DNA of 64,000 nucleotides from Acidobacteriota bacterium (GTDB lineage Bacteria; Acidobacteriota; Thermoanaerobaculia; Multivoradales; J023): the NCBI GenBank assembly GCA_029263395.1, contig JAJCXO010000200.1:1-64000 (forward strand). The letters run 5' to 3'. Shown piece by piece: positions 5,854 through 12,637 of the stretch. Position numbers and translations under genes: made by a program. The notes beneath the pieces are model-generated. The model was not told where the DNA came from. It saw only the letters and a program-made list of their open reading frames with translations, and did no database searches. How positions within the stretch are numbered: position 1 is the first letter of the stretch; every line of letters begins with the position of its first letter.

Positions 5854-6819
5854 ATGGCGAGACTCACCTTCTTGGTGCACAAAGGTAAGGAGTACACGGT
5901 CCAGAAGTATCTGGCCAGTTGGGGGCAAGAACTGGTTGGCCGAGTGGACATCAAGCATTATCCAGAGTTGCGCAGCACCGGGCATACTTGGCTCAAGCGA
6001 CTGAGTCAGGACGTTCGTGCCCGCCGGATCGGTACCCTGCGCGATCCGGGGCCGCCGACCGGAGAGCCGCGGATCTACATCTTCACCGATATCGAACGTT
6101 TGAGTGCTTCCGAAACCGCGGTTGCCGAAGCTCTTTACCAACGGCTGGCGGACCATCCCGACACCAGGTTGATCGTCAACCACCCGACCCGTTCGCTCCG
6201 TCGGCTCGAGTTGCTCCAATTGTTGAAGGCTCGCGGCCTCAACAGTTTTGGGGTTTATCCCGCCGGGGAGCACCCGCAGCCAGAGCGCTGGCCGGTGTTC
6301 CTACGCGACGAAAACGAGCACGGTGGCAGCTTTTCGGACCTGCTGCACTCACCTCGTGAGCTCGAACAACACCTCGCCAAATTGAGTGCCGCTGAGCTGG
6401 CGGACAAGGTGGTTGTGGAGCACTGCGATACGTCGGACGCCGAGGGCACCATTCGTAAGTACGGTGCTTTTCGCATCCGTGAGCGGATCATCGCTCGCCA
6501 GATCCACTTCAGCCGCCATTGGGTGGTGCGGGTACCGGATCTGCAACAACCTTGGACCGGCCACGAAGAGCTCGAATACGTTGAGGCCAATCCGCACCAG
6601 AAGGAAATCATGGAGATTTTCGAGTGTGCTCGAATCGACTACGGGCGAGTGGATTACAGCGTTGCGGACGGCAAAATCCAGGTATGGGAGATCAACACTA
6701 ACCCGATGATCCTGATCCCCAAGGATCGTCAGGATCCTCTGCGCTTTGCCGCCCACGATCGTTTTGGCCAAGCGTTCACCGCTGCTCTCGAAGCGTTGTT
6801 GGCCGGTGCTGGCGAGTGA
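5854..6819 (+). CDS. ATP-grasp-like protein, surface-glycan neighbourhood
   Basis: A 321-residue soluble protein. The C-terminal third carries ATP-grasp-like features: RQIHFSRHWVVRVPDL, an EYVEANPHQKEIMEIF helix, then YGRVDYSVADGKIQVWEINTNPM. The last segment fits the family's metal-binding strand, in which acidic and Asn residues (D, E, N) hold ATP-Mg. The N-terminal part (TFLVHKGKEYTVQKYLA, then YIFTDIERLSASE) is not assigned. ATP-grasp enzymes make carboxylate-amine or related bonds, and homologues with this layout sit beside polysaccharide genes. Here the divergent O-antigen ligase supports a glycan-modification role (inference). The start is supported by a purine-rich GAGAGAGACTC before the ATG. 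It is transcribed away from the ligase and converges on the first selenoprotein. Confidence 0.65.
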   Translation: MARLTFLVHKGKEYTVQKYLASWGQELVGRVDIKHYPELRSTGHTWLKRLSQDVRARRIGTLRDPGPPTGEPRIYIFTDIERLSASETAVAEALYQRLADHPDTRLIVNHPTRSLRRLELLQLLKARGLNSFGVYPAGEHPQPERWPVFLRDENEHGGSFSDLLHSPRELEQHLAKLSAAELADKVVVEHCDTSDAEGTIRKYGAFRIRERIIARQIHFSRHWVVRVPDLQQPWTGHEELEYVEANPHQKEIMEIFECARIDYGRVDYSVADGKIQVWEINTNPMILIPKDRQDPLRFAAHDRFGQAFTAALEALLAGAGE

Positions 6820-6908: not shown

Positions 6909-7442
6909 CTAACCCAAAGCTGCAATCAAATCGACCGGCTCGGCGTTGTCACCGAAGGTTTGGCTTAAGTGGCCGAAAAGATCAACGTTGCCGGGACCGA
7001 AGACGAAGCTGCCGCCGAGCTGGAAAGGATTTTTGCCGAGTCGACGTTGGCGATGGCCGCCAGCCTGGGCTCGTTTGCGGGCAGCCAGGTTGTCGCGTCG
7101 CATCAGGTGGAGCATCGAGCCCATCTTGAGCCCGGCAACCTTGTAGGCTTGGCGCTCTTCGTCGATCAATAGCGGGAACGAAATCTCGGTCTGCCGCTTG
7201 AAGATCGAACCGTAGTGGCGATCTCCGAGACCAATCGCGGCGAGGTTGGCGCCCGCCTGCTGAATGTCGTCTTCGTGGTCACGCAACTGCGCAACATGCT
7301 CGCGGCAGAAGATTCAGCCGTAGTGGCGCAAGAAGACCAGGATCGTCGGCTTTTCGTGCCATAACGATCCGAGCTCAACTTGCTGCCCTTCGGTATCTGG
7401 CAAGGTGACCTTGGCGAGGGCGGCGCTCAATGTGGTGTTCAT
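6909..7442 (-). CDS. Peroxiredoxin-like (AhpC/TSA) selenoprotein, UxxC motif
   Basis: A 177-residue thioredoxin-fold protein if the in-frame TGA (complement of 7314-7316) is read as selenocysteine 43. Before the TGA the protein reads ELGSLWHEKPTILVFLRHYG. After it the same frame continues IFCREHVAQLRDH and on to a full peroxiredoxin-like domain. The redox motif is therefore U43-I-F-C46, where homologues of the AhpC/TSA_2 (PRXL2-like) family have GCxFCRE. Later strands such as FPLLIDEERQAYKVAGL are typical of the family. The start ATG at 7442 opens MNTTLSAALAKVTLP. A stem-loop follows the TGA. The likely role is thiol-dependent peroxide or disulfide reduction in the cytosol. It is divergent from proB across 128 bases containing a 13-base tandem repeat. 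A frameshifted or dead gene is less likely because the frame and motif resume exactly. Confidence 0.85.
7287..7308 (-). promoter_or_regulatory. Candidate bacterial SECIS stem-loop (selenoprotein 1)
   Basis: On the minus strand, five bases after the UGA, CTG-C-CGC (7308-7302) pairs with GCGCAG (7292-7287), giving six pairs with one bulged C. The apical loop is nine bases, GAGCATGTT, containing G and GU. The loop starts about 12 bases after the UGA, slightly nearer than in Escherichia coli fdhF. Hand-folded only. Confidence 0.5.
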
Positions 7443-7504
7443 GCGTGCCAGTATATCTGCATAGGTGAGCCTGTATCCCGAGAAGGCACGACCAGTCCTG
7501 GGTT

Positions 7505-7556
7505 GACTCGTCGGGATGACTCGTCGGGATGACCCGTCGGGATGACCCGTCGGGAT
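7505..7556. repeat. Four tandem copies of a 13-bp unit upstream of proB
   Basis: Four contiguous 13-base units read GACTCGTCGGGAT twice and GACCCGTCGGGAT twice. They end 14 bases before the proB ATG, in the divergent control region shared with the first selenoprotein gene. The copies could alter leader length or spacing by slippage, which is inference. Confidence 0.9.
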
Positions 7557-7570
7557 AAACTCGAACGGTG

Positions 7571-8773
7571 ATGAAAACCTCACAGCCTACCCCTCAGCTC
7601 ATACCGCGGCCGTCTGGCACCCCGCACCGCCCGGCGGTTGCCGCGGCTCGTCGCGTGGTGCTCAAAGTTGGCACCCGGGTGTTGACCCACACCAATGGAC
7701 GTTTGGCCCTGGCTCGCCTTTTTGCGATCGTCGAAGCTGCGGCCGAGTTACAAGGTGCTGGGCGTGAGGTCCTGGTGGTGAGCTCCGGCGCTGTTGGACT
7801 CGGCAAAGAATCGCTACAGCTCGACCACATGCCGATGGAGCTCCATGTGCGCCAGGCCTGTGCTGCGGTGGGACAGAGCAAGCTGATGGGCCTCTACGAC
7901 AGTGGCTTCTCACGCCTCGGCTTGGTGTGCGCTCAGGTACTGTTGTCGCAAGGGGACTTTGACGACCGGACGCGTTATCTCAACTTGCGCAGTGCCTTGA
8001 ATGCCCTGCTGCGGCGCGGAGTGATTCCGATCCTCAACGAAAACGACGTGGTGTCGACCGACGAACTGGCGTTCCTCGACGGTGCCAAGCAGCCGGTGTT
8101 TGGAGATAACGACCAGCTATCAGCATTGGTGGCCACTAAACTCGACGCCGAGTTATTGGTGCTGCTTACGGATGTGGATGGCGTTTACGATTGTGATCCA
8201 CGGCATCATCCTGACGCCCGGTTGCGATCCCGGGTCGACGATCCAGAATGCCTGGTTCAGGCCGCGGGCGGGCCCGGTTCAGCAGCGAGCCGAGGCGGGA
8301 TGCGCAGCAAAGTCGACTCCGCGGCAGTGGCGGCTCGCGGGGGTTGTCACGCTGTGGTCGCCAGTGGAGTTCGCCCCGGAGTTTTGTCGCAAGTGTTGAT
8401 GGGTGACGACGTTGGTACCTGGTTTCCGGCTGGCCCGGGTCTCGCGGCTCGCCGCCGTTGGATCGCGTTTGCGGTAGCGCCACGGGGTGTCTTGGAGCTC
8501 GACGCCGGGGCGGTCGACGCGCTGCAAGAACGTGGCGCTTCGCTGCTGGCGGTTGGCGTACGGAACGTCGAAGGAGAGTTCGAGGCCGGTGACGTGGTGC
8601 AACTGCGCGGTCCGCAGGGGTTAGTCGGCCGCGGTATCGTCTGTTGTGATGCTGCCACCGCCCGCGCCTGGTCCACTGGACAGCCACCGGCAGGTGTGCG
8701 CAATCATCACGCCCTGGTGCATCGAGATCACTTGGCGCTGGAAAACGAACCCCGATCGGAGCCCGTGTCATGA
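7571..8773 (+). CDS. proB: Glutamate 5-kinase with PUA domain
   Basis: A 400-residue enzyme phosphorylating L-glutamate to L-glutamyl 5-phosphate, the first step of proline synthesis, in the cytosol. The amino-acid-kinase domain opens with VVLKVGTRVLT and contains SSGAVGLG, the NENDVVST segment and FGDNDQLSALVA, all hallmark ProB stretches. GGMRSKVDSA matches the conserved GGM.TK substrate loop. Residues about 285-375 form the PUA domain (GVLELDAGAVDAL, ASLLAVGV, GEFEAGDVV). The N-terminus has an extra 20 or so residues. GTG at 7568 and ATG at 7571 are adjacent, and ATG is preferred. The stop overlaps the proA start by four bases (ATGA), so the two genes are translationally coupled. ProB is normally feedback-inhibited by proline. 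Confidence 0.96.
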   Translation: MKTSQPTPQLIPRPSGTPHRPAVAAARRVVLKVGTRVLTHTNGRLALARLFAIVEAAAELQGAGREVLVVSSGAVGLGKESLQLDHMPMELHVRQACAAVGQSKLMGLYDSGFSRLGLVCAQVLLSQGDFDDRTRYLNLRSALNALLRRGVIPILNENDVVSTDELAFLDGAKQPVFGDNDQLSALVATKLDAELLVLLTDVDGVYDCDPRHHPDARLRSRVDDPECLVQAAGGPGSAASRGGMRSKVDSAAVAARGGCHAVVASGVRPGVLSQVLMGDDVGTWFPAGPGLAARRRWIAFAVAPRGVLELDAGAVDALQERGASLLAVGVRNVEGEFEAGDVVQLRGPQGLVGRGIVCCDAATARAWSTGQPPAGVRNHHALVHRDHLALENEPRSEPVS

Positions 8774-10101
8774 GCACCTCGACTACCAACGCTCGGGACT
8801 TGGCAAGCTTGGTCCGCTTGGCTCGTGCCGCTCGCGCTGGTCAACGTGGTTTGGGCACCGCGGCAGCTGACGTCCGTACCGCTGTGCTCGGTAGGTTGTC
8901 GGCCCTGCTCGGTGAGCGCCAAGAAGAAATTCTGGCCGCCAACCAACTGGACCTCGACGCTGCTCGCGAGTCGCAGCTGTCGGCACCACTGCTCGGCCGC
9001 CTGGCGTTGTCGCCGAGCAAACTGGCGACCCTGCGTGAAGGGGTCGATATCGTGGCGGCACAGGCTGATCCGATCGGTCGCGTCGTGCGAGCGACCGAAC
9101 TCGACGACGGACTGATCCTGCGCCAGGTCAGCAGCCCGATTGGCGTGTTGTTGATCATCTTCGAGAGCCGTCCCGACGCGGTGGTGCAGATTGGTTCCTT
9201 GGCCTTACGTTCGGGCAACGCGGTGATCCTCAAAGGCGGCTCCGAGGCCGGCCATTCGAACCGTGTCTTGGTCGCCTGCCTGCGGGACGCCCTGGTCGCC
9301 GAAGGATTACCCGCCGATGCGGTCTGTGGTATCGAGGGGCGAGACGCGGTACGCGAGTTGCTCGAGCTCGACGAGCTCATCAACTTGGTCATTCCCCGCG
9401 GCTCCAGTGCTTTGGTGCGTTCGATCCAGGCCTCAACCCGCATTCCGGTGCTGGGCCACGCCGAAGGGATTTGTCACTTGGTGCTCGATGCCAGCGCGGA
9501 CGTCGAGGTTGCCACCCGGCTGGCAGTGGACGGCAAGTGTGGTTATCCGACCGCCTGTAATGCCGTCGAAACCTTACTTGTCCACCATGAGTTCTTACCG
9601 CAGCTCGCAACCGTCGGCCAGGCGCTAATCGACCGCAATGTCGAGCTGCGGGCAGACGAGCGCTCGCGGGCCTGTCTACCAGCAGCAGCCCCGGCGAGCG
9701 ACGAGGATTGGGCCACCGAATACGGCGACTTGGTGCTGGCGATCCGTACCGTCGACACTCTCGATCAGGCAATCGCGCATATCCATCAATACGGCAGTGC
9801 GCACACCGAAGCCCTCGTCACCCAAGATTCTGAATCCCGTGCGCGCTTCTTGCGCGGGGTCGACGCTGCGTCGGTTTTTGTCAATGCCAGCACCCGGTTT
9901 GCCGATGGCTACCGTTACGGTCTCGGGGCCGAGGTTGGGATCAGTACCTCACGGATCCACGCCCGCGGACCGGTGGGAGTCGAGGGGCTGTTGACCACCC
10001 GCTGGCTGCTCGAAGGCGAAGGCCAGATTGCTGACGACTACGGCCCTGGCAAGAAGGCCTTCAAGCACCACGTGCTGCCGACCGGAGGGCCAGAGGATTG
10101 A
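8770..10101 (+). CDS. proA: Glutamate-5-semialdehyde dehydrogenase (gamma-glutamyl phosphate reductase)
   Basis: A 443-residue NADPH-dependent enzyme of the aldehyde dehydrogenase superfamily. It reduces glutamyl 5-phosphate to glutamate 5-semialdehyde, the second step of proline synthesis. Recognisable stretches are SPIGVLLIIFESRPDAVVQI, ALRSGNAVILKGGSEA, and the nucleophile segment PTACNAVETLLVH containing the catalytic Cys. FRFADGYR-type family residues are represented by STRFADGYRYGLGAEVGIST. The C-terminal ARGPVGVEGLLTTRW matches the family. The length is normal, about 20 residues over the E. coli enzyme. It overlaps proB by four bases. The reaction passes through a cysteine thiohemiacetal, which may be relevant to the selenocysteine peroxiredoxins on both sides (inference). 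Confidence 0.96.
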   Translation: MSTSTTNARDLASLVRLARAARAGQRGLGTAAADVRTAVLGRLSALLGERQEEILAANQLDLDAARESQLSAPLLGRLALSPSKLATLREGVDIVAAQADPIGRVVRATELDDGLILRQVSSPIGVLLIIFESRPDAVVQIGSLALRSGNAVILKGGSEAGHSNRVLVACLRDALVAEGLPADAVCGIEGRDAVRELLELDELINLVIPRGSSALVRSIQASTRIPVLGHAEGICHLVLDASADVEVATRLAVDGKCGYPTACNAVETLLVHHEFLPQLATVGQALIDRNVELRADERSRACLPAAAPASDEDWATEYGDLVLAIRTVDTLDQAIAHIHQYGSAHTEALVTQDSESRARFLRGVDAASVFVNASTRFADGYRYGLGAEVGISTSRIHARGPVGVEGLLTTRWLLEGEGQIADDYGPGKKAFKHHVLPTGGPED

Positions 10102-10207
10102 ATCCTAGATCCCTCGGCATCCGAATAAAGCCACGAGTACTAGACAAACGATCAACCTAGGGTGACGATCCCTCCCGATCAGGAGCGATCGACCCGCGGA
10201 GGATGTG

Positions 10208-10852
10208 ATGGGTTTAAAAGAACGCTTAGATGCGATTCGAGAAGGCTCGAAGCAGCGCATCCCAGAAGACACCCGTGCGATTATGCATCGTGCGACCGAA
10301 GAGCTCAGGACTTCGGGCATCCTAGACAGTGTTGCCGCCGTCGGCGATACGATGCCCGAGTTCACCCTCGTCAACACCCACGGCGAAATGGTGAGCTCCG
10401 CCGCGCTGCTGGCCGAAGGCCCGTTAGTGGTCAGCTTCTATCGTGGCCATTGGTGACCGTACTGCAATGCGGAGCTGGATGCTCTGCGCAAGATCACCGG
10501 CAAATTGGGTGAGCACGGTGCCAAGCTAGTAGTGATTTCCCCACAGCTACCGGAGCATGGTCAGGCGATGCTCGAAAAGCACCGCCTGAGTTACGATTTG
10601 CTGCAGGATCCGGAAAACGAGCTGGCCGCCAAGTTTGGCCTGAAATTCAAGCTGCCAGACGATGTGCGGGAGATTTACATCTCCTTTGGTCTCGATCTGA
10701 CCGCCGCCAACGGCGAAGACAGCTGGACGTTGCCGATGCCCGCACGGTTCGTCGTCGATGCGACCGGCGTCATCCGTTCGGTGGATGTCGATCCCGACTA
10801 CACCGTCCGACCCGAGCCGCAAGCGACGCTCGACGTCGTCGCCTCCCTGTAA
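10208..10852 (+). CDS. Peroxiredoxin-like selenoprotein, FYRGHWU motif
   Basis: A 214-residue protein if the in-frame TGA at 10454-10456 is read as selenocysteine 83. The frame runs SFYRGHW-U-PYCNAELDALRKI without interruption. Cysteine homologues of this AhpC/TSA family read FYRGxWCPYCN, so U replaces the peroxidatic-position Cys and C86 is the partner. Upstream, DTMPEFTLVNTHGE fits the family's first strand. Downstream, QLPEHGQAMLEKHRLSYDLLQDPENELA and PARFVVDATGVI match the rest of the fold. The N-terminal 40 residues form a helical leader. Start: ATG at 10208 follows GGAGG at 10198-10202; a GTG at 10205 is less well spaced. It lies 106 bases after proA on the same strand. The likely role is selenol-based peroxide or disulfide reduction. 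Confidence 0.9.
10463..10490 (+). promoter_or_regulatory. Candidate bacterial SECIS stem-loop (selenoprotein 2)
   Basis: GCGGAG at 10469-10474 pairs fully (one G-U) with CTCTGC at 10482-10487 around the seven-base loop CTGGATG. A lower stem of TGC 10463-10465 with GCA 10488-10490 is separated by an AAT bulge. The loop starts 18 bases after the UGA, the usual bacterial SECIS distance. Confidence 0.65.
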
Positions 10853-12285: not shown

Positions 12286-12419
12286 ACCGAGTCGTCGGAT
12301 TTCGGAGCCTGTCTCCGAATAGACGTAGGGTTGACTTCCTCGGGCAAGAATCAGTAGGCACCCGCAGGATGATATCCGGCACCGTGGCATTCCGTGGCAT
12401 TGCACCGGGGTATCGTGCG

Positions 12420-12552
12420 CACGGTGACGCTGGTGACGGTGACGCTGGTGACGGTGACGCTTGGTGACGGTGACGCTTGGTGACGGTGACGCTTGGTGAC
12501 GGTGACGGTGACGCCGGTGACGGTGACGGTGACGGTTAGCGTCACCGTCACC
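12420..12552. repeat. GTGACG-rich tandem repeat ending in an inverted unit
   Basis: A run of GGTGACGGTGACGC-type units spaced 15 to 16 bases apart, with internal six-base GGTGAC steps, covers roughly 12420-12536. It ends with GCGTCACCGTCACC at 12539-12552, the exact reverse complement of the unit. The inverted end could fold back on any upstream copy and form a variable hairpin. Confidence 0.9.
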
Positions 12553-12637
12553 CTGTGTTCGAGGCGTAATTCGTCCATATCGGGCGAATTTTGGCCCGTT
12601 CTGGGTGATTCGCCGGAGAAGCCCAGAAAACCACACC

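Follow-up and report, generated by a model that had tools for sequence, protein, structure and literature searches.

Two predicted UxxC selenoproteins encoded on either side of proB-proA in an Acidobacteriota genome

SelL, the namesake of a group of redox proteins, is known for a UxxU motif. UxxC peroxiredoxin-like selenoproteins are long-listed families (Prx-like 1 of PMC2398784; Table 1 of PMC13188914). Genes for redox selenoproteins have been reported as neighbours, in the pairs Prx/SelW and Prx-like/AhpD-like and in the SAO and Tso operons (PMC2398784, PMC13188914). For the RNA signal, the published bSECIS model sets criteria for loop size, a loop G, spacing and stem length, together with an energy limit of -7.5 kcal/mol (PMC13188914).

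We analysed a 64,000-nucleotide stretch of an Acidobacteriota genome (the window), in which two predicted selenoprotein genes, here called P1 and P2, lie on either side of proB and proA. The features of the locus are as follows.

6909..7442, minus strand: P1, predicted SelL-related (AhpC-TSA_2 / PRXL2-like) UxxC selenoprotein, 177 aa (profiles, model)
7278..7295, minus strand: predicted P1 SECIS stem-loop, 7 bp stem, AGUU loop, loop start 25 nt past the TGA
7314..7316, minus strand: predicted Sec43 of P1, a TGA, the U of UxxC (TGA/Cys pattern in relatives)
7450..7455, minus strand: TATACT, a probable -10 box that ends 7 nt upstream of the ATG of P1
7571..8773, plus strand: proB, glutamate 5-kinase, ATG at 7571 (GTG at 7568 possible; TIGR01027, E 4.8e-101)
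8770..10101, plus strand: proA, glutamate-5-semialdehyde dehydrogenase (NF001221, E 2.5e-149)
10208..10852, plus strand: P2, predicted peroxiredoxin-like UxxC selenoprotein, 214 aa (profile, structure matches)
10454..10456, plus strand: predicted Sec83 of P2, a TGA, the U of UxxC (TGA in the genomes G003 and G002 and in many relatives)
10469..10487, plus strand: P2 SECIS-like stem-loop, 7 bp stem, loop UGGAU, loop start 19 nt past the TGA

The P1 frame runs on the minus strand from an ATG at 7442 to a TAG at 6909, through an in-frame TGA (7316-7314) in the context RHYG-U-IFC. The P2 frame runs on the plus strand from an ATG at 10208 to a TAA at 10852, through an in-frame TGA (10454-10456) in the context GHW-U-PYC. 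An earlier note on this DNA had described both frames as reading on past TGA in these contexts, with proB and proA between them, and this layout is confirmed. The proB and proA assignments have NCBIfam scores far above the curated cut-offs, and the two genes overlap by 4 nt. Among the frames of the window, 40 have a Cys no more than three residues from a TGA; judged by motif alone, only P1 and P2 resemble known Sec motifs.

P2 is preceded by a Shine-Dalgarno sequence, GGAGGA. P1 is without a visible one, and its TATACT ends 7 nt before the ATG; from the sequence, its mRNA appears to be leaderless. A TAnnnT ending 6-9 nt before the ATG is found in 12 of 44 relatives, against a mean of 1.3 and a maximum of 6 in shuffled sequence; most of the 12 are from Acidobacteriota (loci L125-L131 and L134). 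Four tandem 13-bp repeats, GACYCGTCGGGAT, occupy positions 7505-7556 between P1 and proB; we rejected them as operators, as the sister species G003 is without them. A gene for a 321-aa protein (5854-6819, plus strand) is convergent with P1 and has a copy in the sister species that is 81% identical. Pfam and NCBIfam profiles gave no match to it, and a stretch reading EINTNP may mark it as a divergent member of the ATP-grasp proteins. Beyond P2, positions 12390-12560 hold TGACGG/TGACGC-like simple-repeat runs in a stretch without clear genes. An Rfam scan of the region returned no match.

P1 scores 128.4 bits against the SelL-related redox protein profile NF040769, for which the cut-off is 120. 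Both proteins fall within the AhpC/TSA superfamily by their thioredoxin fold and by their scores against PF00578 (P1 47.5 and P2 94 bits, cut-off 26). The AlphaFold model of P1 (pLDDT 94) adopts a thioredoxin-type fold, and its best solved relative, by sequence and by fold, is human prostamide/PGF synthase (prostaglandin F), in which Cys44 of the CxxC aligns with Sec43. The human protein shares the fold but uses Cys where P1 has Sec. P1 thus resembles the SelL-related family (NF040769; PF13911; PRXL2/PGF synthase relatives) in having CxxC or UxxC at the same site, while it differs from SelL in having a single Sec, UxxC rather than UxxU. A literature search found nothing on SelL-related selenoproteins in this class, which is weak evidence that none has been reported.

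The best 17 matches to P1 in 72 genomes of the order comprise 16 with one TGA at the Sec site (38-99% identity, the window's own copy included), followed by a 17th with Cys. Of 80 loci from GTDB genomes, 51 have TGA at this site and the other 29 all have a Cys codon. Such a pattern places the P1 TGA far beyond chance, and the TGA-bearing relatives span several phyla and independent assemblies.

P2 reaches 41 bits against NF040769, below the cut-off of 120, and is therefore not SelL-related by score; its nearest solved structures are of the PrxQ/Bcp types. It can be likened, at the family and not the subfamily level, to the Prx-like thiol:disulfide oxidoreductase UxxC family (PF00578), with which it shares the domain and the UxxC motif, although it is set apart by its GHWUPYC motif and a helical N-terminal extension of 40 residues. 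The same TGA is present in G003 (81% identity), in G002 (48%) and in many relatives at 31-40% identity. On contig C227 of the same genome, a paralogue with 41% identity has Cys at the Sec site, and together with the 29 Cys-bearing P1 loci this bears out the statement of the earlier note that both proteins have Cys-containing homologues. That note had also called the two frames unrelated. Instead, they are distant homologues that align in register with 27% identity over 99 residues (E = 3e-10 for the pair), and both match PF00578. Judged by sequence, P1 and P2 are almost certainly members of known selenoprotein families.

The P1 stem-loop spans bases 22-39 counted from the T of TGA, with a 7 bp stem and the loop AGUU. 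We relied on sequence comparison to assess it, because minimum-energy folding of a single stretch is not distinctive: in this genome, the P1 hairpin is no more stable than shuffled sequence (z 0.22). All 51 Sec relatives have CAG-TTG together with the AGTT loop, and the stem pairs at 7 of 7 positions in 50 of them and at 6 of 7 in one. None of the 29 Cys relatives pairs at 7 of 7, and TTG is used in one. The TTG Leu codon within the stem-loop is invariant in the 16 genes of the order, while elsewhere in those genes TTG makes up 12% of Leu codons; as the codon and stem sequences are related and not independent, we claim no exact probability. Covariation in the stem, calculated over the 51 sequences, lies above all 500 shuffles and above every slid pairing, with three pairs changed on both sides; in the set of 16 sequences from the order it is not significant. 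Three Chloroflexi-type P1 genes have a different stem (CUGGCCC/GGGCCGG) and an unchanged loop. Because the GTDB scan was run with the peptide E[HQ]VAQLRD, conservation of the peptide among its hits is biased, whereas codon choice and base pairing are unbiased; an unbiased order-wide search (16 genes) gave the same result. The P1 SECIS is very rigid: Sec relatives belonging to several phyla retain the stem-loop together with its peptide VAQLRD, and Cys relatives have lost them, which argues that the RNA constrains the protein.

The P2 stem-loop covers bases 16-34 on the same count, with a 7 bp stem and the loop UGGAU. In more distant P2 relatives, the stem has 6 bp and is shifted by about one base, its loop also contains GG, and one compensatory pair has changed from A-U to G-C, both changes being synonymous. 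The P1 and P2 stems both fit the bSECIS model (PMC13188914) for loop size, loop G, spacing and stem length. The energy of the P1 stem alone is borderline, -7.4 kcal/mol against the published limit of -7.5, and that of the 42-base stretch is -9.3.

The genome (10.68 Mb, 96% complete) encodes a tRNA-Sec that scores 68 bits, above the Rfam cut-off, and that ARAGORN also calls. selA, selB and selD were detected as well, the selD gene itself containing an in-frame TGA, so that selA, selB, selC and selD, which the earlier note had proposed to look for, are all present. At least nine Sec-type genes were found, a lower bound drawn from four family searches. The AhpC/TSA search contributed five of its 23 matches and the CMD search both of its own, to which selD and one SelW-like match are added.

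From these sequence comparisons, it is near certain that the TGA codons of P1 and P2 are decoded as Sec. In each mRNA, the stem-loop just 3' of the UGA would bind SelB, which would deliver Sec-tRNA to that codon. The products would be small thioredoxin-fold UxxC selenol-thiol oxidoreductases. Alignment and fold suggest that Sec, at the position of the first Cys of CxxC, is the attacking group and that the Cys three positions further along (Cys46 in P1, Cys86 in P2) joins it in a selenenyl-sulfide. Their most probable substrates are peroxides or disulfides, which P1 and P2 would reduce within the large selenium-based redox set of this Acidobacteriota lineage. Taken jointly, the best explanation, which we hold with high confidence, is that both are genuine selenoproteins, that they act as UxxC oxidoreductases and that their position around proBA is accidental.

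Could the TGAs instead be real stops, in decayed genes or through assembly errors? TGA does terminate elsewhere in the window, as the stop codon of both proB and proA, where it is an ordinary stop. Yet independent assemblies and several phyla share the same TGA, invariably where the catalytic Cys would sit; the conserved downstream stem-loop and the complete Sec machinery likewise speak against termination, and we consider this reading vanishingly improbable. It is also unlikely that P1 and P2 are canonical peroxiredoxins, with chemistry determined by the residue at the peroxidatic position. Both match PF00578, and the structures nearest to P2 are of the PrxQ/Bcp type, but the canonical PxxxTxxC motif is absent from P1 and P2, in which Arg takes the place of its Pro and Sec that of its Thr. 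When P2 is aligned to solved peroxiredoxins, Sec falls on the motif Thr and the next Cys on the peroxidatic Cys, and the closest solved relative of P1 is the CxxC prostamide/PGF synthase. P1 and P2 should therefore act as CxxC-like oxidoreductases.

A further reading, akin to the inference of the earlier note, gives P1 and P2 a protective or regulatory role towards ProBA, such as maintaining the active-site Cys of ProA in its reduced state, and makes the four genes a functional unit. In the two sequenced species of the genus the genes do lie side by side, and ProB is present in 14 of 16 P1 genomes compared with 9 of the remaining 56 (Fisher P 2.4e-7, or 0.002 by genus); a HisD control shows no co-occurrence with P1 (0.24). 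However, the order P1-proB-proA-P2 is confined to these two species (the window genome, G000, and G003), whose contigs are collinear over about 19 kb that take in unrelated genes; with such general collinearity, no special selection is needed for the order. The linkage is lost in every other genome, those of the same family included: 12 further genomes carry P1 and ProB on separate contigs, several of which reach hundreds of kb. P1 also occurs without ProB in G041 and in G001 (96% complete), a member of the same family whose P1 is 72% identical, and ProB occurs without P1 in nine genomes. Among the GTDB loci, proB-proA lies near P1 only in L125, which is the same contig as that of G003, and across 55 loci the shared neighbours of P1 were limited to P1 itself, an antisense frame on P1 and sporadic families. 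The gene order is thus not kept beyond close relatives. With labels permuted within families, the co-occurrence of P1 and ProB falls to P = 0.066, and genome size is a confounder, as P1 genomes are larger (median 6.4 versus 4.4 Mb); we regard the co-occurrence as a weak lead rather than as support for a mechanism. A four-gene unit is accordingly very unlikely. We rate as slightly less probable still that, within this genus, P1 and P2 were recruited to guard or switch ProA, and with it proline synthesis, by selenium-dependent redox chemistry. If that recruitment were true, the order-wide co-occurrence of P1 and ProB would be an older sign of it.

A recognisable ProB is missing from most genomes of the order (G041-G063 and others), although HisD is present in nearly all members of one large genus; this suggests uptake of proline or a different route to it. 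A prolyl-oligopeptidase-family (S9) peptidase gene lies about 2.2 kb beyond P2 (13030-15177, minus strand), also in the sister species.

The clustering of two selenoprotein genes around proBA, which had been described as unusual, is less so than claimed. Like the reported neighbours (PMC2398784, PMC13188914), P1 and P2 are two redox selenoprotein genes within 4 kb; they differ in lying on opposite strands with proBA between them, not in one operon, and in doing so in one genus only. For a genome of 10.7 Mb that holds 9 to 30 Sec genes, chance alone would give 0.02 to 0.3 pairs this close. The position of P1 and P2 around proBA is best read as fortuitous, a matter of gene order within a single genus, and not as a functional unit with proline synthesis. 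What would have been surprising is a link to that pathway; such a link is unlikely and was not borne out.

For the biology of the lineage, the genome documents a selenium-rich redox set, selD included, in a large-genome acidobacterium. Ordinary annotation would truncate the genes of both P1 and P2 at their TGA codons.
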